Origin: Devosia sp. Root436
GTDB taxonomy: Bacteria; Pseudomonadota; Alphaproteobacteria; Rhizobiales; Devosiaceae
DNA: 64,000 nt
Direction of reading: 5' to 3'
NCBI RefSeq assembly: GCF_001426345.1
Contig: NZ_LMEM01000013.1
Location: 186,001 to 250,000, forward strand
Under the pieces are notes generated by a model that saw nothing but the letters and a program-made list of their open reading frames with translations, made no database searches and was not told the DNA's origin. Positions 47,928-54,568 of the stretch are shown here, piece by piece (within the stretch, counting starts at the first letter, position 1; each line of letters starts with the position of its first letter). The translations under genes and the position numbers were made by a program.

Positions 47928-48003
47928 GCCCGGGTAGCTCAGTTGGTAGAGCAGCGGATTGAAAATCCGCGTGTCACTGGTTCGATTCCGGTCCCGGGCA
48001 CCA
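47928..48003 (+). tRNA. tRNA-Phe (anticodon GAA), likely integration target
   Basis: A full cloverleaf with acceptor stem GCCCGGG and CCCGGGC, anticodon stem GCGGA/TCCGC, loop TTGAAAA (anticodon GAA) and an encoded CCA end. Mobile-element genes follow at once and an integrase lies 2.5 kb downstream, so the 3' end of this gene is the probable att site. Confidence 0.95.
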
Positions 48004-48338
48004 CCTATTTCTTAAATAAACTCAAATAGTTGTAGGTGGCATTGGTCCTATCGAGCACCGCCCCGTGTGACATTCGTGCGCCACGCGCAAACCCCAGCGA
48101 TTCCGGGCGGTCACTTCCGGCCCCGGTAAATCCATGTCACATGAAATGGCACATCGAATGGTCTATAGTCGGTACTCATGGCCGATGTAATCGATCGCCC
48201 TCGCTGTGGGCAGCGGCGGCAGCCTCGAGCTGCGGGCGCGAAGCGTTGGCGCGGATCACGCTGCCGTTGACCGGTCGATTGTTTGACTTCAACGACCTTG
48301 ACGCATATTGAGCCCGCTACCCAAGGGAAGCCGGCCCT
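48004..48338. other. Gene-free left edge of the element, with a possible promoter
   Basis: No credible coding frame is seen in these 335 bases. A CTATTT...AAATAG dyad lies right after the tRNA. A TTGACT (48283-48288) followed at 16 bp by ATATTG (48305-48310) could be the promoter of the three-gene cassette that starts at 48339. Confidence 0.4.
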
Positions 48339-49550
48339 GTGAAAAAGCGATCGTCGGATAGGCAGTTCAGGGACGCAGCGCAGGTTCGGCGCCGTTACGC
48401 TCGTTATCTCCGACGTGCACTTGTCCTCCTTATTCGGCGCAAAGGACGACCGGCGTTAAGCACGCTTCAGCGGTCGACGTCCAACCGCCGCAAAATGCCG
48501 GCAGGCTACTACACTTCGCCGAAGGAGGCACGGGCGATGCCGGTGCCTCCCATCTTCGCAGTCGAGAATGCAGAATTCCTCGAGTGGCTGTCGAACTCGT
48601 TCTCGCGCAGCAGTAGGCACTTGGCCAGGATCACGCGCCGACGCGCCCAAGGACGCAGGATCAAGCGGGTTCGAGGCCTGTCGTACAGCGACTTCGCGAT
48701 GATCAAACAGATGACGCCCGAGGCAGCACTGGTCGTTGCAGCGCTCTACGACAGAAACCGCACGCTGTCTCAGTCCGCGACGCATGTGTACAACCTTGCG
48801 GACTGGAGCCCTAGCGTCAGGGACACTCTAGGCCGCATTGGCTTCTTTGAGATTTTGGGATTACCTTCAAATGAGGTGATAGCCCTGTCCGACCCACTAA
48901 CGCGGATAGAGCGCTTCAATTCAAGCGCGCAAGTGGAGTCGGTGGAGCTAGGCCAACTCGTCGAAAAACTGCTCGACTACCTGATTGCCGCCCATCCAGG
49001 CTGCCTTACCGGGGACGAAACAGTGGCTCGGACCATAAAGCTGTATTCAGCGCTTATCGAGGCAACGGAGAACACTCGCCGTCACGCCTATCCCGTCGAC
49101 TTCAGCTCGGCAAACCCTGTGCAGCCTAACTGGTGGCTCACCGGCGCGATTACGGAAGCGGAACGCAAGCTCTCTCTGGTCGTTTACGATCAAGGAATTT
49201 CCATTCCCGGGAGCCTTGCCGCTCATCGTGATTCTCAATGGGCGGGCCACAATTATGTCAACCGGGTATTGAAGAGATTTACCAAAGGGGCATTTGATGA
49301 TGATGACCCGATCTCAGACCATGCAAAGATACGCCTTGCCATGCGACACGGCTGGACCTCGACTTCATCATCGCATCGCGGTAAAGGGCTGCCAGTTGTG
49401 CGCGAGGCTATTTCTCACTGCCAGCATGGCATCCTTCATATTTTGAGTAGGAATGGCGCGTATCGTGAGGAAACTGGAAGGAAGCCGCAATCATGGCACT
49501 TGAGTTCGCCAATGCCAGGAACGCTCATCATATGGGACCTTTGGCTATGA
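48339..49550 (+). CDS. GHKL-type ATPase protein of a three-gene cassette
   Basis: The protein is 403 aa from a GTG at 48339, with an AAGGGAAG ribosome site. Residues 1-115 are strongly Arg/Lys-rich (RRRYARYLRRALVLLIRRKG). The C-terminal part is a histidine-kinase-like ATPase: N-box EATENTRRHAY (E241, N245, H249), G1 box VVYDQGISIPGS (D284), G2 box HRGKGLPVV (residues 346-354) and a closing PGTLIIWD strand. No H-box, receiver or membrane helix is seen, so it resembles an anti-sigma-type kinase rather than a sensor kinase. It overlaps the STAS-like gene by 4 bp. Base composition is lower in GC than the core. Confidence 0.75.
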   Translation: MKKRSSDRQFRDAAQVRRRYARYLRRALVLLIRRKGRPALSTLQRSTSNRRKMPAGYYTSPKEARAMPVPPIFAVENAEFLEWLSNSFSRSSRHLARITRRRAQGRRIKRVRGLSYSDFAMIKQMTPEAALVVAALYDRNRTLSQSATHVYNLADWSPSVRDTLGRIGFFEILGLPSNEVIALSDPLTRIERFNSSAQVESVELGQLVEKLLDYLIAAHPGCLTGDETVARTIKLYSALIEATENTRRHAYPVDFSSANPVQPNWWLTGAITEAERKLSLVVYDQGISIPGSLAAHRDSQWAGHNYVNRVLKRFTKGAFDDDDPISDHAKIRLAMRHGWTSTSSSHRGKGLPVVREAISHCQHGILHILSRNGAYREETGRKPQSWHLSSPMPGTLIIWDLWL

Positions 49551-49903
49551 CCGCTCATCCAGCGGCCGCATCACCGATCATTATTGCCGATGATTTCTCG
49601 CGCTTTCCCGGCGGCAGATATCGCGCCGATGGCGACAACAGTGGCGAGGAGTTCCGAGAGGACTACCTCGTTCATGCCATTGACGCTGCGCGTACAGCGG
49701 GTCGCCCTGTAACTGTCGTCCTCGACGGCGTAGCCGGATATCCCGCATCCTTCCTGGAAGAGGCTTTTGGCGGCCTCGTTCGTGAGGGGCACTTCACTAA
49801 GGCCGATCTGCGCAAGTGGCTTGTGATTGAAGCGTCGTCTCTCTACCAGACTTTTCAGGTTCTCACTTGGAGCTACATCGACCAGGCTAAGCCTAAGACG
49901 TGA
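49547..49903 (+). CDS. STAS-like DUF4325 protein
   Basis: The protein is 118 aa. The core motif GYPASFLEEAFGGLVREG (from residue 64) matches the STAS-like DUF4325 family; Ser68 aligns with the conserved Ser of the helix start that is phosphorylated in SpoIIAA-type proteins. DUF4325 proteins often follow a GHKL ATPase gene, which suggests a kinase/antagonist switch. The ATG overlaps the ATPase stop (ATGA), and its own stop overlaps the next start (GTGA). Confidence 0.8.
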   Translation: MTAHPAAASPIIIADDFSRFPGGRYRADGDNSGEEFREDYLVHAIDAARTAGRPVTVVLDGVAGYPASFLEEAFGGLVREGHFTKADLRKWLVIEASSLYQTFQVLTWSYIDQAKPKT

Positions 49904-50391
49904 CGGGCGGGCGGTTCTCTGAACTTGTCCTCGCCGCGCTCTTTGGGGCGTGCTCTGCGCTGATCCTGGCCTGGCTCAAGTCCAGCCGCGATGACCACTG
50001 GGAAACCTTTAAGCACTTTATCGAGCAGGTGATGGCCGTCGCAGAGGATGGCACCGATTACTGGCTACTCGACGCCAATGACGATAACCGCCTCCGACTT
50101 GAAGCAAAAATACTGGGCGGGCAGACCTACCTGCAACATCACTCCCTGTTGGTATTCGGCCGACTTCGCGTCCATGAGATGATGCCCCTGGTGCAAAGTC
50201 TGGCGCTGTTTCTGGATTCTCTATCTGGCGGAGACTTCCGTAGCCCCACGCGCACAGCCGACTTTCAGCGCGCGTCAGATTGCCAAGTGCGAGCAGCCGA
50301 ACTTGCGGTGCTGGCCCGTCAAACATTTTCGAAGTCGGTTACGCTCATGGCGATGTTTAAGCGCTTCACGCGCTACCCATTCGCGGGCTGA
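49900..50391 (+). CDS. Single-pass membrane protein, third gene of the cassette
   Basis: The protein is 163 aa from a GTG overlapping the DUF4325 stop. One transmembrane helix lies at residues 7-25 (SELVLAALFGACSALILAW), then a soluble mostly helical domain with a DANDDNRLRLEAKIL segment and a Leu-rich core. I do not recognise a family. The position makes it the likely sensor or effector output of the ATPase/STAS pair. The gene is followed by the integrase gene on the other strand. Confidence 0.65.
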   Translation: MTGGRFSELVLAALFGACSALILAWLKSSRDDHWETFKHFIEQVMAVAEDGTDYWLLDANDDNRLRLEAKILGGQTYLQHHSLLVFGRLRVHEMMPLVQSLALFLDSLSGGDFRSPTRTADFQRASDCQVRAAELAVLARQTFSKSVTLMAMFKRFTRYPFAG

Positions 50392-50472: not shown

Positions 50473-51708
50473 TCATCCCAGTAGCGCCGCCGCCGCGGCG
50501 CTCATCTCGCTGCCGTCGTCTAGTCGCTCGAACAGGTGGCTGTAGGTGTTCATCGTGATGACGATGGACGAGTGCCCGAGCCGCTCCTGGACCTCTTTCG
50601 GCGACAGGCCCAACCCGCCGGCCTTCGTCGAGTTGATCAGCCAACTGGCGTTGAAGTGTCTCAGGGCGTGCATGCCGGTATATTTCGCGGCGAGCACCGG
50701 CTTTCCCTCCGCATCGACCTCCCCGGTGTCCACCGTCACACCAGCCCGCACCATCGCCGGGCACAACCCGCGATTGATGATGTTGGCCAGGCTCTCGACC
50801 TTGCCCTGGCCGTTGGGGAACACGAGCTGTAGCACCTTTGCCGGCTGCCCAGCGTCGCCCTTCTTGCCGGTGTCCTTCCGCGGGCAGACTAGCCGCCATT
50901 CCCTCAGAGCGTTGACGACCAGCGCCGGCAGCGAGACATAGCGCTCGCTGGTTTCTGTCTTCGGCCGGCCAATCGCGTTGTACCGATCCGCGCGCTGGCG
51001 GACGTACACGCCGCCCTTGACCAGATCGACATCATCCCAGACCAGGCCCCGCAGCTCACTGGCCCTCAGTCCGCCGAACACTGCCACGAGCATCAGCGGG
51101 CGCCATCGGCCGCGCAGATGTCCCAGGAAGGCTTTGACCTCGTCGGGCGAGGGAATGTCCACCCCGACCCTCAACTTGCCCTTGGCGCGCTTCTCTGCGC
51201 GCGCGTCGGCACCATTCCCCAGCCCCCTCATGTCCCGCACTACGTTCCTCACGGCGTGGCCGCGCTTTTGCGCGTTCGCGAGTATGCTGCCCAGGCTGAC
51301 CATCACCTTCTTGATCATGGCGGCCGAGCGTCCGGCGTCGTGCAACTCGTCCTCGAACTTGCTCAGCACCACCGGCGTCAGGGCGGGGAGCTTCACGTGA
51401 CCTATTGCCGGGTTGATATGCAGATCCAGGTGCTGTCGGTATTGGGCGATGGTGGCCTGCTCCCGGCCGGCGCGCTGCTTGGCCTTGATCCACAGGTCCC
51501 CCGCTTCTTCGATCGTGATGCTATCGCTCGGGGCGATGTGCGTACCGTCGGCTACCTCAGTGCTGGCTCGCTTCTCGTAGGCCTCGGCATCCTTCTTCAG
51601 CTTGAACTGCTTCCGATGGCGCCTGCCGGCGGCGTCGACATAGTCCGCAACCCATGCCTGATTGGGGCCGGCTATGGAGTCAGGGAAAAAGCGCTTACGG
51701 ACGGACAT
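50473..51708 (-). CDS. Tyrosine-type site-specific integrase
   Basis: The protein is 411 aa from the ATG at 51708 (MSVRKRFFPDSIAG). An N-terminal arm-binding and SAM-like core-binding domain precede the catalytic domain with Arg215 (GGLRASEL), HxxR at 347-350 (HALRH), His379 (RLGHSS) and the nucleophile Tyr389 (NTYSHLF). All catalytic residues are present. The frame continues upstream to 51846 inside the Abi gene; the ATG at 51708 overlaps the Abi stop and is preferred. It should integrate the element at tRNA-Phe. Confidence 0.93.
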   Translation of the reverse strand: MSVRKRFFPDSIAGPNQAWVADYVDAAGRRHRKQFKLKKDAEAYEKRASTEVADGTHIAPSDSITIEEAGDLWIKAKQRAGREQATIAQYRQHLDLHINPAIGHVKLPALTPVVLSKFEDELHDAGRSAAMIKKVMVSLGSILANAQKRGHAVRNVVRDMRGLGNGADARAEKRAKGKLRVGVDIPSPDEVKAFLGHLRGRWRPLMLVAVFGGLRASELRGLVWDDVDLVKGGVYVRQRADRYNAIGRPKTETSERYVSLPALVVNALREWRLVCPRKDTGKKGDAGQPAKVLQLVFPNGQGKVESLANIINRGLCPAMVRAGVTVDTGEVDAEGKPVLAAKYTGMHALRHFNASWLINSTKAGGLGLSPKEVQERLGHSSIVITMNTYSHLFERLDDGSEMSAAAAALLG

Positions 51709-52643
51709 CAGGCCCCTCCATTGTTGGCTATGGCTGTCGCTGGCGGTTTCCAAGCTGGCAATGTCAGCCAGTTGTCGGGGAAGCCCATTGCATCGAGCTT
51801 TGCATGATCGCAGGAGGCGACAAGCTCGCGGAGCCGCTGGCGCCAATCAGAAGTCGGCGCCACAATCCCCATTAAATAGCCGAGCATCGCGAGCGTGTTG
51901 TAGAGTCGCCGTTCGGTGTGAGGATTCATGGCAAGCCTGAGCGACGACGGCGCGTTCGGTACCTTCATCGTCACCGTGAATTGCTTGTTCCAGAGCCTGC
52001 CGTGATGGGCGCAGATGTTGCGAACATAGGTCAGATGGTGAGCGCAGGATGCCAACACTTTTTCATCAAGGCCATAGACCTTGGCGACGGCCTGCCGATC
52101 AGCGCGCGCTTTGAGATTGCTGTACCATTTCGACAGTTGCCCAAGGGACATGATCTCCGAAATCATCCAGATGGGCGGATGCTCAGGGTCATCGTACTTG
52201 GTCTTGTAGTGCTTGATGAAGGTGTCCTTGGACCAGTCGATCTCATCGAGCAGGGAATTCAGGGCCCGTGCGAACTGGTCGCTTCGGGCGTAGAGGGCTG
52301 GGTCCAGGTAACCGTGCGGGCCGTACTGGATGGCCAGCCGATAGGCCCACGCGCCACGAAGTGAAACTTCAACGCGCTCGATCGCGTCCATGACCAGGAG
52401 CCTGAGCTGGCGATCGAAGACGTACAGGGATATGGCGTCGTCTAGAGAAGTTCCGTCGGCGAACTTGTGTTCACCGTCAACCTGCGCCGGCACTTCGAAT
52501 GGAAGCCAGTACGCCCTCAATCGATAGTAGCTGATGTGCTGCAGGTAATGGTCGGCCTTGCCCTTGTCGGGCACTGACATGCCGCGTCCTTCGAGCTTCT
52601 CGATCTGCCGCTGGATGGTCAGGGAGGGCTTGGTGAACTTCAT
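51708..52643 (-). CDS. Abi family (AbiF/AbiD, Abi_2) HEPN ribonuclease-like protein
   Basis: The protein is 311 aa from the ATG at 52643 (MKFTKPSLTIQRQI). It has the Abi_2 start (QIEKLEGRGM, HISYYRLRAYWLPFE) and the HEPN active-site motif RNICAHHGRLWN (R208-x4-H213). Proteins of this family cause abortive infection, and HEPN members are RNases. The stop overlaps the integrase start, so Abi and integrase are one unit. A hairpin RNA lies just upstream on the same strand (see 52661-52730). It is best read as an anti-phage locus carried by the element. Confidence 0.88.
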   Translation of the reverse strand: MKFTKPSLTIQRQIEKLEGRGMSVPDKGKADHYLQHISYYRLRAYWLPFEVPAQVDGEHKFADGTSLDDAISLYVFDRQLRLLVMDAIERVEVSLRGAWAYRLAIQYGPHGYLDPALYARSDQFARALNSLLDEIDWSKDTFIKHYKTKYDDPEHPPIWMISEIMSLGQLSKWYSNLKARADRQAVAKVYGLDEKVLASCAHHLTYVRNICAHHGRLWNKQFTVTMKVPNAPSSLRLAMNPHTERRLYNTLAMLGYLMGIVAPTSDWRQRLRELVASCDHAKLDAMGFPDNWLTLPAWKPPATAIANNGGA

Positions 52644-52660
52644 CGTGTCACCAGAGGCCA

Positions 52661-52730
52661 GAAACAAGAAACCCGCCGGGGTGCGCAGTACGAAGCCGAG
52701 GCTCCGTCCGAGGCGTGGCGGGTCTTGTTG
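52661..52730 (-). ncRNA. Candidate abiF-type structured RNA upstream of the Abi gene
   Basis: On the minus strand this stretch folds into a long stem: AACAAGACCCGCC (52729-52717) with GGCGGG-TT-TCTTGTT (52677-52663), a 13-bp stem with a 2-nt bulge. The loop between holds two CCTCGG repeats. The 3' arm runs into TTTC, which may double as a terminator. A TATATC box (52740-52735) lies just ahead. A conserved abiF RNA motif is known near Abi genes. Assignment to that family is from memory, without a covariance search. Confidence 0.6.
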
Positions 52731-53592: not shown

Positions 53593-53641
53593 ACCGCTGC
53601 CCTGGCAGGCAGCAATCCCAACATCATTGAAAGTCAACAAG

Positions 53642-54568
53642 ATGCAATCTGCATATAGCAGTTCGCAGGCCGAACTTCTACGCCCTGACGAACACCCCCT
53701 CACCATGTCGAGCAGCGATATCGCCAAGCTCACCCACAAGCGCCATGACAACGTGAAACGCACCATCGTCGCCCTTGCCGATGCAGGTGTGATGACGCTT
53801 CCTCAAATTGAGGAAACGTCTTTCCTCGATACCAAGGGAAAGGCCCAGTACACCACCGCCTATCGGCTGATCGAGCGCGACACCTATGTCGTGGTCGCCA
53901 AACTCTCTCCCAAGTTCATGGCCGCAGTCGTGGACGAGTGGATCGATCTGCGCGGCGGAATTTCGCTCCACGGTGGAGCGAAATTCGACCTGATCGAGTT
54001 CGCCGACCGCGCTCGTACCGACATCGAAGCCGTCCGCGACCTCATTGCCCGCGAAGGTCACGGGACACGCGGCGCCCTGATCAAGGCGGTGAAGGAACTG
54101 GCCGGCAATCCGATCGGCGCCCTCAAGTCCTATCTCGACGATCGCTTCATGGCCTCGCGTGAGCGGGACAAGATGGTGATCGGCAGCTTGGCGACGCTCG
54201 ATAGGTCGGTTGGCCAGGTGCTCGCTCTCGCCCGGCGAGCGCTCGAGCCTGATGCTTTCGTTGCCGGCGATTGGGTGGCCGTAAGCGGCGTCTATGCCCT
54301 CGCCGGCGTCAACGGCCCAGTCCCTCGCCAGAAGTCGCTCAGCGCCCGCCTGACGGTATCCCTGGTGGCATTCTGCATCGAGACCCATCGTCAGATGGAC
54401 ATGCGAGGCATCAACTTCGATCGCAAAGTCCACCTCTACCGCGCCACTGCTGTCCGCGCATGGCTCAAGGATCGCGGCAAGGCACTGATTGACCAGCACA
54501 TCGCCAAGCACTCTGCTCAGACGGTGATCGCCTTCCCCGGCCAGCCGGTGGAAGGGGGTGCGAAGTGA
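53642..54568 (+). CDS. Rha family phage regulatory protein
   Basis: The protein is 308 aa from the ATG at 53642; a TTG at 53627 is in frame. The N-terminal Rha domain is clear: MSSSDIAKLTHKRHDNVKRT, AYRLIERDTYVVVAKLSPKF and MAAVVDEW. Rha proteins are phage regulators that interfere with growth in some hosts. A long C-terminal part with AKELAG-like helices follows. It is the first gene of a chain of overlapping early genes. Confidence 0.85.
   Translation: MQSAYSSSQAELLRPDEHPLTMSSSDIAKLTHKRHDNVKRTIVALADAGVMTLPQIEETSFLDTKGKAQYTTAYRLIERDTYVVVAKLSPKFMAAVVDEWIDLRGGISLHGGAKFDLIEFADRARTDIEAVRDLIAREGHGTRGALIKAVKELAGNPIGALKSYLDDRFMASRERDKMVIGSLATLDRSVGQVLALARRALEPDAFVAGDWVAVSGVYALAGVNGPVPRQKSLSARLTVSLVAFCIETHRQMDMRGINFDRKVHLYRATAVRAWLKDRGKALIDQHIAKHSAQTVIAFPGQPVEGGAK

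Follow-up and report, generated by a model that had tools for sequence, protein, structure and literature searches.

What do a kinase, a STAS-like protein, and a membrane protein, encoded together just inside one end of a prophage, control? This question is raised by a locus in a stretch of 64,000 nucleotides from Devosia sp. Root436 (the window; contig NZ_LMEM01000013.1, positions 186,001 to 250,000), where consecutive open reading frames (ORFs) encode a GHKL kinase (K), a STAS-like protein of the DUF4325 family (S), and a single-pass membrane protein (T). The ORF coordinates give overlaps of 4 bp at both the K/S and the S/T junction (ATGA and GTGA), as a first-pass annotation made from the sequence alone had claimed:

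48339-49550, + strand: K, GHKL kinase; GTG start, 403 amino acids; ORF call
49547-49903, + strand: S, DUF4325, STAS-like; ATG start, 118 amino acids; ORF call and PF14213
49900-50391, + strand: T, single-pass membrane protein; GTG start, 163 amino acids; hydropathy, charge rule, and model

The results suggest, with a probability of about 0.58, that K-S-T is a partner switch like VapKSC and CapKS, controlled by phosphorylation, in which the protein held is a membrane protein, probably an effector. In the SpoIIAB-SpoIIAA and RsbW-RsbV systems, a GHKL serine kinase acts on a STAS-fold partner. The main article of Chambers et al. 2026 (June 2026; PMC13373217) describes VapKSC, an anti-phage kinase-STAS-toxin switch in which the C-terminal helix of VapS extends towards the VapC active site. 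As reported there, removal of the VapS C-terminus or an S48E substitution abolished the antitoxin effect, and S48E ended co-purification with VapC in an experiment done once (PMC13373217). The same article assigns an aromatic residue that stacks on single-stranded DNA (ssDNA) to VapK (F54) and CapK (W68), and describes CapK as having an N-terminal helix-turn-helix (HTH) and CapS as a transcription repressor with a winged HTH (PMC13373217).

The trio is a conserved module

A tblastn search with K returned four plasmid records and one phage. An S gene followed K at all five loci and an annotated third gene came next at four; at the fifth (L005) the third gene is unannotated, yet an ORF begins 2 bases past S. 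Scans with an S alignment found 227 viral-contig and 282 genome-contig relatives, 80 of each being kept, and a scan of the class that contains the Rhizobiales found matches in 12 of 385 genomes. A trio was counted as complete when K lay upstream and an ORF of at least 110 amino acids with N-terminal hydropathy of at least 1.0 came directly after S. The first-pass annotation had staked its proposal on recurrence of the trio elsewhere, and among these loci, all fetched through S, the trio was complete at most viral (69/80), genome (62/80), and class-survey (9/12) loci. K was lost to a contig end at 3 viral and 2 class loci and absent from 4 viral, 6 genome, and 1 class loci. The T ORF was lost to a contig end at 2 genome loci, absent from 3 viral, 7 genome, and 1 class loci, and under the hydropathy limit at 4 viral, 6 genome, and 1 class loci. 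The three sets overlap in part, and one prophage may be in both the viral and the genome set; for example, L011 and L171 are both the Root436 prophage.

The 132 loci with an untruncated K were reduced to 112 at less than 75 % K identity. S started within 40 nucleotides of the K stop in all 112 and T within 40 nucleotides of the S stop in 108. Because a script chose each start codon close to the preceding stop, the exact spacing is partly by construction. According to record titles, the hosts are mostly Alpha-, Beta-, and Gammaproteobacteria, with two Phycisphaerae/Phycisphaerales, Aquimarina, a Bacteroidetes metagenome-assembled genome, Bryobacterales, Pontiella, and a Leptospira plasmid as other examples. 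Because the gene order is repeated on plasmids, a phage, viral contigs, and genomes, it is not a product of chance. Thus, K-S-T is a real, widespread, conserved module. K is rare in the family of its own host (2 of 136 genomes, the Root436 genome counted), and searches of isolated phages with two S sequences and one K sequence (E ≤ 1e-5) found Marinobacter phage AS1 alone. On an Acinetobacter plasmid (L197:752-3261), an apparently intact S-T pair is separated from an IS3-like element by only a 492-base ORF, presumed to be the terminal part of K.

K is related to CapK

K matched nothing in Pfam at E ≤ 1, HTH families included, and has a basic helix instead of an HTH. Its match to PHROG 3364 (9.5e-36) is to a family for which no function is given. 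A structure model (predicted local distance difference test, pLDDT, 87.2) shows a helix at residues 6-36, then a mixed region, then a GHKL fold. The features of K are as follows:

K residues, + strand: 6-36, basic helix; ~65-180, STAS-like; ~188-402, GHKL; model and CapK homology
49059-49073, + strand: N-box of K, E241 to N245, these two residues being invariant in 74/74 relatives

The ATP-site residues E241, N245, D284, G286, G348, and G350 are invariant in all 74 aligned relatives. The tryptophan pair W265-W266 in the GHKL domain (49131-49136) is also widely kept (W265 in 73 and W266 in 70 of the 74) and was not seen in CapK-like rows.

For comparison with CapK, we collected six CapK-like proteins with a 36-base operator probe printed in PMC13373217 and then through plasmid relatives. 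The CapK and CapS labels were assigned here from the probe, the HTH, and multiubiquitin, ThiF, or SAVED neighbors at 4 of the 6 loci. The CapS-like protein of one locus (L010) matched PDB 9z71 at 2.6e-105, and five CapS-like proteins of 176-188 amino acids gave HTH matches that fell on either side of the curated cut-off. In a profile-profile comparison (hhalign), K aligned with the six CapK-like proteins over K residues 77-403 with a probability of 98.8 % (E 4.9e-17). By this measure K is clearly homologous to CapK across the STAS-like and GHKL regions. Among the kinases of the two systems K was compared with CapK alone; a plasmid search with a VapS fragment gave no match. The label "STAS-like" for the K region comes from CapK homology, the direct match to SpoIIAA reaching only E 0.88.

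Among solved structures, the best fold match of K was SpoIIAB (E 5.8e-4, with a TM-score of 0.66 when scaled to the target length). Searching with a profile of 74 K proteins recovered RsbW at 0.0013 and SpoIIAB at 0.03, with SpoIIAA at the N-terminal half only at E 0.88; a search of solved structures with the single K sequence found none. SpoIIAB and RsbW are the closest solved relatives of K that were found, which raises the alternative of a classical anti-sigma system with K as the anti-sigma factor, S as its antagonist, and T as a tether only. The genes beside the trio argue otherwise. In scans that covered 150 of 201 upstream and 150 of 194 downstream neighbors, Sigma70_r4_2 was found in 2/150 downstream and no sigma factor was among the 25 most frequent upstream families, although an unlinked one could exist. 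In addition, K matches CapK over the STAS-like and GHKL regions together, and the trio differs from the SpoIIAB/RsbW systems in the extra STAS-like region and basic helix of K, in its membrane third partner, and in having no linked sigma factor seen beside it. An anti-sigma system is therefore highly improbable.

The first 45 residues of K and its relatives carry a mean net charge of +11.4, and at least +5 in 92/100, figures based on the earliest start codon in each ORF, which may overextend some proteins. Such a basic N-terminus would suit nucleic-acid binding. CapK W68 is present, by eye, in 5 of 6 CapK-like rows, and the trigger of K may differ from that of CapK because W68 has no clear counterpart in K.

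S is a predicted kinase substrate

The assignment of S to DUF4325 with a conserved Ser68, proposed in the first-pass annotation, agrees with a PF14213 score of 35.4 bits (cut-off 23) and with the invariance of S68, F69, L70, E72, F74, G75, and G76 in all 65 aligned S proteins; position 68 was also Ser in 39/39 further loci. DUF4325 alone covers the 118 residues, and Pfam revealed no DNA-binding domain or HTH in S. In a weak match to Escherichia VapS (PDB 9z7o; E 0.56), S68 falls opposite chain position 66, which corresponds to VapS S48 if 18 extra residues are taken as a tag. S68 also aligns with CapS S54 at a profile probability of 3.7 %, and S and CapS-like rows share the motif S-F-x-x-E. 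These alignments, together with the relationship of K to CapK and to SpoIIAB/RsbW, are in line with the resemblance to a SpoIIAB/SpoIIAA partner switch that had been noted for K and S.

A locus on a Janibacter plasmid (L185:2881-4360) has a CapK-like gene followed by one for a DUF4325 protein (27.8 bits, cut-off 23) that also has winged-helix matches below their cut-offs. This locus apparently bridges CapS and the DUF4325/S family. The C-terminal residues W108, Y110, and I111 of S are partly conserved, and residues 97-112 may be helical, as inferred from residue spacing and from VapS. S is predicted to be both the substrate of the kinase and the holder of T. Two sites matter here:

49748-49750, + strand: S68 codon, predicted phospho-acceptor; invariant 65/65; weak alignments to the VapS and CapS serines
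49835-49882, + strand: C-terminal stretch of S, residues 97-112; covaries with T

T is a membrane-anchored helical protein

The single-pass character previously proposed for T was borne out by a single hydrophobic segment near the N-terminus, residues 8-26. Of 108 T proteins, 90 had N-terminal hydropathy of 1.3 or more, versus 73/395 other ORFs of 110-220 amino acids from the same loci. Lysine and arginine were commoner after the segment than before it in all 101 T proteins having one, and therefore the helical bundle of T is predicted to be cytosolic. The model of T (pLDDT 94.5) has a long helix, residues 3-56, that opens with the membrane segment, and further helices at 63-86, 91-109, 122-146, and 149-158. 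The parts of T used below are as follows:

49921-49977, + strand: transmembrane segment, residues 8-26; hydropathy
50059-50064, + strand: Y54-W55; W in 37/47, Y in 31/47
50212-50238, + strand: residues 105-113, predicted S contact at 105/106 and (T/S)GG.F loop; conservation and covariation

Across an alignment of 47 T proteins, the motifs in window numbering are Y54-W55, T109-G-G-x-F, R118, D121, and R124, with T109 in 44, F113 and W55 in 37 each, and Y54 in 31; the window T has Ser at 109. The third ORFs thus look like one diverged family. Judging from the topology of the model, not from its coordinates, YW and TGGxF would come together at the membrane-distal end of the bundle.

T convincingly matches no family of known function in the searches made. 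The window T had no Pfam match at E ≤ 1 and reached only E 0.34 in PHROGs, a profile search for solved relatives gave nothing below E 0.09, and a fold search of the PDB and viral models gave no match at E ≤ 0.001. Four-helix-bundle fold matches were discounted as generic. The 47 T proteins matched seven PHROG families, including phrog_34309 in one (4.3e-80) and phrog_30059 in three (3.4e-6), both without a given function. A Saf_2TM effector domain, the sole Pfam match (1/47, E 0.001), and a PHROG "holin" (1/47, E 0.006) were treated as chance. No PIN domain was found in the window T or the 47 rows, and the model is all-helical and membrane-anchored.

S and T covary in charge at a probable contact

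Covariation was examined in 121 paired trios (effective number 98). Because S and T were aligned separately, alignment register cannot favor their pairing. In mutual information, positions 99, 106, and 109 of S (S99, S106, S109) with positions 105 and 106 of T (T105, T106) ranked, together with several K-T pairs, among the strongest couplings between proteins. The C-terminal region of S and the tip region of T, which were picked after the mutual-information list had been seen, scored 0.215, above all clade-preserving shuffles (ten per level; maxima of 0.112, 0.128, 0.173, and 0.186 at 6, 15, 30, and 45 clusters). The charge correlation of S106 with T105 was -0.77, the lowest among S x T pairs, and 0/300 clade-preserving permutations reached this value at 1, 6, or 15 clusters. 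The charge of S106 was opposite to that of T105/T106 in 72 of the 121 trios and the same in none, with the remaining 49 neutral on at least one side. Mapped on the K tree, the sign at S106 flips 17 times or more.

The columns were then held fixed for a retest on 92 new loci, 87 with S and T ORFs and 84 with K, of which 39 were less than 70 % identical in T to the 121 and to each other. In these 39 new S-T pairs, charges were opposite in 31, the same in 0, and neutral in 8. The simplest reading of this covariation is that the C-terminus of S directly contacts the tip of T.

Proposed mechanism

Computation supports the homology of K, the aligned serine, the conserved operon, the topology of T, and the S-T contact from covariation. 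In a resting lysogen, the C-terminus of S would sit on the cytosolic tip of T and keep T inactive. K would be switched on when it senses stress, most likely nucleic acid from DNA damage or from an infecting phage. Active K would then phosphorylate S68, causing S to release T, and the freed T would block the phage by arresting growth or killing the cell through an action at the inner membrane. That S holds T appears well supported by the covariation, and it is likely that K frees T by phosphorylating S. That the freed T would harm the membrane is a guess by analogy. Phosphorylation, the trigger, the effector role of T, and a benefit against phages are thus what we infer.

Several results weigh against this partner switch. 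S versus CapS is not significant by profile (3.7 %), and the VapS match is at E 0.56 only. In a by-eye reading of the alignment, the ssDNA-stacking W68 of CapK has no obvious counterpart in K. T has no match to a killing activity beyond Saf_2TM and holin, each weak and in 1/47. No PADLOC model was found in more than 2/150 downstream neighbors (best 25 of 191 families; downstream scan only). At 30 clusters, where little is shuffled, 3/300 permutations reached the S-T charge value. Whole-protein distances in 101 loci correlated best between K and T (0.445), followed by K-S (0.242) and S-T (0.166). The region score of the K STAS-like part with T, 0.211, exceeded shuffles at 6, 15, and 30 clusters and not at 45 (maxima of ten shuffles, 0.146, 0.159, 0.209, and 0.216), and therefore T may touch K too. 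This K-T covariation is kept as a possibility alone because its charge counterpart lies within the clade-preserving null, the value being reached in 173, 244, and 238/300 permutations at 6, 15, and 30 clusters. Without predefined regions, K-T scored 0.278, above shuffles at 6, 15, and 30 clusters (45-cluster maximum, 0.287), and K-S scored 0.243, above shuffles at 6 and 15 clusters only (maxima of 0.205, 0.230, 0.248, and 0.243 at 6, 15, 30, and 45); the K-S charge value was reached in 11, 14, and 61/300 permutations at 6, 15, and 30 clusters.

The K-T distances and the hint of covariation between the STAS-like part of K and T would also fit a T that is the sensor, with phage injection or depolarization making T release or pull S, and K and S relaying the signal to a host target. 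T has a membrane segment, and bacterial sensor domains are among the weak fold matches of its helical bundle. However, none of these fold matches reached E ≤ 0.001, and the bundle is predicted to be cytosolic in 101/101 proteins, unlike periplasmic sensors. Pfam neighbor scans, which see named families only, revealed no recurrent fourth gene that could provide an output. A sensing T is consequently improbable. The first-pass annotation had left T to sense or execute; executing is more likely and sensing less so, since T is apparently contacted by S and the sensor-like parts belong to K.

Genomic neighborhood

A further possibility is that the switch is the same and T is not toxic, serving as a membrane anchor or regulator of S, and perhaps of K, with prophage induction or superinfection immunity as the output. 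The company the trio keeps gives this idea some appeal. CI-type repressors were found upstream (HTH_3 in 10/150 and Peptidase_S24 in 8/150), and in Marinobacter phage AS1 the trio is flanked, across some hypothetical genes, by a Cro/CI regulator on one side and an anti-repressor-type gene on the other. As the gene table of Francisella phage vB_FhiM_KIRK describes it, the K-like gene there also follows a CI gene (PMC7924643). However, plasmid-borne trios had no CI/S24 repressor annotated in the stretches seen, S has no DNA-binding domain (DUF4325 only), and in the window the integrase stands between the trio and a Rha/anti-repressor-like gene at 53627-54568. An anchor or regulator role for T is thus unlikely, and a partner switch with T as a probable effector is still preferred.

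Downstream, Phage_integrase was found in 7/150 neighbors, and the nearest downstream gene was convergent in 67/101 loci (ORFs called by script). A phage repressor or integrase is a repeated but not constant neighbor of the trio, which rides plasmids too. A search of defense islands and of the region between integrase and attachment site had been suggested; the integrase association was recovered and no recurrent defense partner was found downstream. Because the downstream PADLOC matches were scattered, mostly restriction-modification types among the matches listed, we make no claim of a defense island. On a Leptospira plasmid (L006:7921-8575), a nucleotidyltransferase/HepT-like pair comes directly after the trio.

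The Root436 prophage

The first-pass annotation placed the trio between an attachment site and the integrase of a prophage, and the boundaries found here agree:

47928-48003, + strand: tRNA-Phe (GAA), integration target; ARAGORN and Rfam tRNA
47955-48004, + strand: attL, exact 50-bp repeat; search of own genome
50473-51846, - strand: tyrosine integrase; PF00589, 1.7e-14

The second copy of the repeat (attR) is at contig position 280929-280978, downstream of the window, ~47 kb from attL. The trio is placed just inside attL, convergent with the integrase, and genes for head, portal, tape-measure, and tail-fiber proteins lie downstream of it. With tRNA-Phe, the 50-bp att repeat, a tyrosine integrase, and structural phage genes, the element is a prophage of ~47 kb in tRNA-Phe. 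A scan for promoters and terminators gave no signal above chance.

An Abi_2/AbiD abortive-infection gene (window 51708-52667, - strand; PF07751, 4.2e-60; PADLOC AbiD, 2.7e-77) has its end overlapping the start of the integrase ORF. Thus, this prophage end bears two defense-like cargoes, K-S-T and the Abi_2/AbiD gene. The att-bounded element also encodes a bacterial-type DNA polymerase III alpha protein of 1071 amino acids (L189:2114-5326) and a DprA-like protein (L189:7265-8017; PF02481, 1.3e-50).

Relation to known systems

In lambda RexAB, which is likewise prophage cargo, a cytosolic sensor probably activates a membrane protein that stops superinfection. To our knowledge it includes no kinase and no STAS protein. 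A RexAB-type system of Pseudomonas putida has reportedly been the subject of one study.

No match to a named system had been found for the trio in the first-pass annotation. This held for PADLOC-DB 2.0.0 (2023), in which K, S, and T gave no match at E ≤ 1; a close relative, VapKSC, nevertheless exists, with a PIN nuclease as its third gene (PMC13373217). As the main article presents it, VapKSC resembles the trio in combining STAS and GHKL regions in a kinase without an N-terminal HTH, and in a STAS protein with a conserved Ser/Thr and a short C-terminal region. The VapS C-terminus acts on the third protein, and here the covariation of S106 with T105/T106 suggests contact. The S proteins are only remotely alike (S versus VapS, E 0.56), and the third gene encodes PIN-domain VapC there and a single-pass membrane protein here; a text search of the main article revealed no membrane third gene (PMC13373217). 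CapKS is like the trio in the homology of CapK to K and in the weak alignment of S54 with S68, and unlike it in the HTH of CapK and winged HTH of CapS described in that article, neither K nor S having an HTH found by Pfam. Because it departs from VapKSC in the PIN nuclease and from CapKS in the DNA-binding domains, K-S-T is best regarded as a sister variant.

The trio may have been seen before. In the gene table of phage vB_FhiM_KIRK, Fhv_0046-0048 are a 293-amino-acid protein that matches Marinobacter phage AS1 at 23 %, then a DUF4325 protein, then a 125-amino-acid transmembrane protein, all tabulated as hypothetical proteins (PMC7924643). From these descriptions, Fhv_0046-0048 are very probably the same K-S-T trio. 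The literature consulted, which lacked preprints and most subscription journals, gave neither function nor name for a DUF4325 operon, and one may have been given elsewhere.

A broader proposal, which we put forward tentatively and at slightly less than even odds, is that K-S-T is a widespread, unnamed abortive-infection system of toxin-antitoxin-like design, carried by temperate phages and plasmids, in which a serine kinase triggered by nucleic acid frees a membrane effector from its STAS-domain holder. T would then be a new effector family, and GHKL-STAS a general socket for nucleases, repressors, and membrane proteins. The residues named here as the predicted working parts of the switch are S68, S106, and T105/T106. 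If the partner-switch reading is correct, K-S-T would be a large phage-borne branch of the switch described in 2026, with a membrane protein replacing the nuclease, and this would explain why a DUF4325 operon for which no known function was found recurs in prophages.

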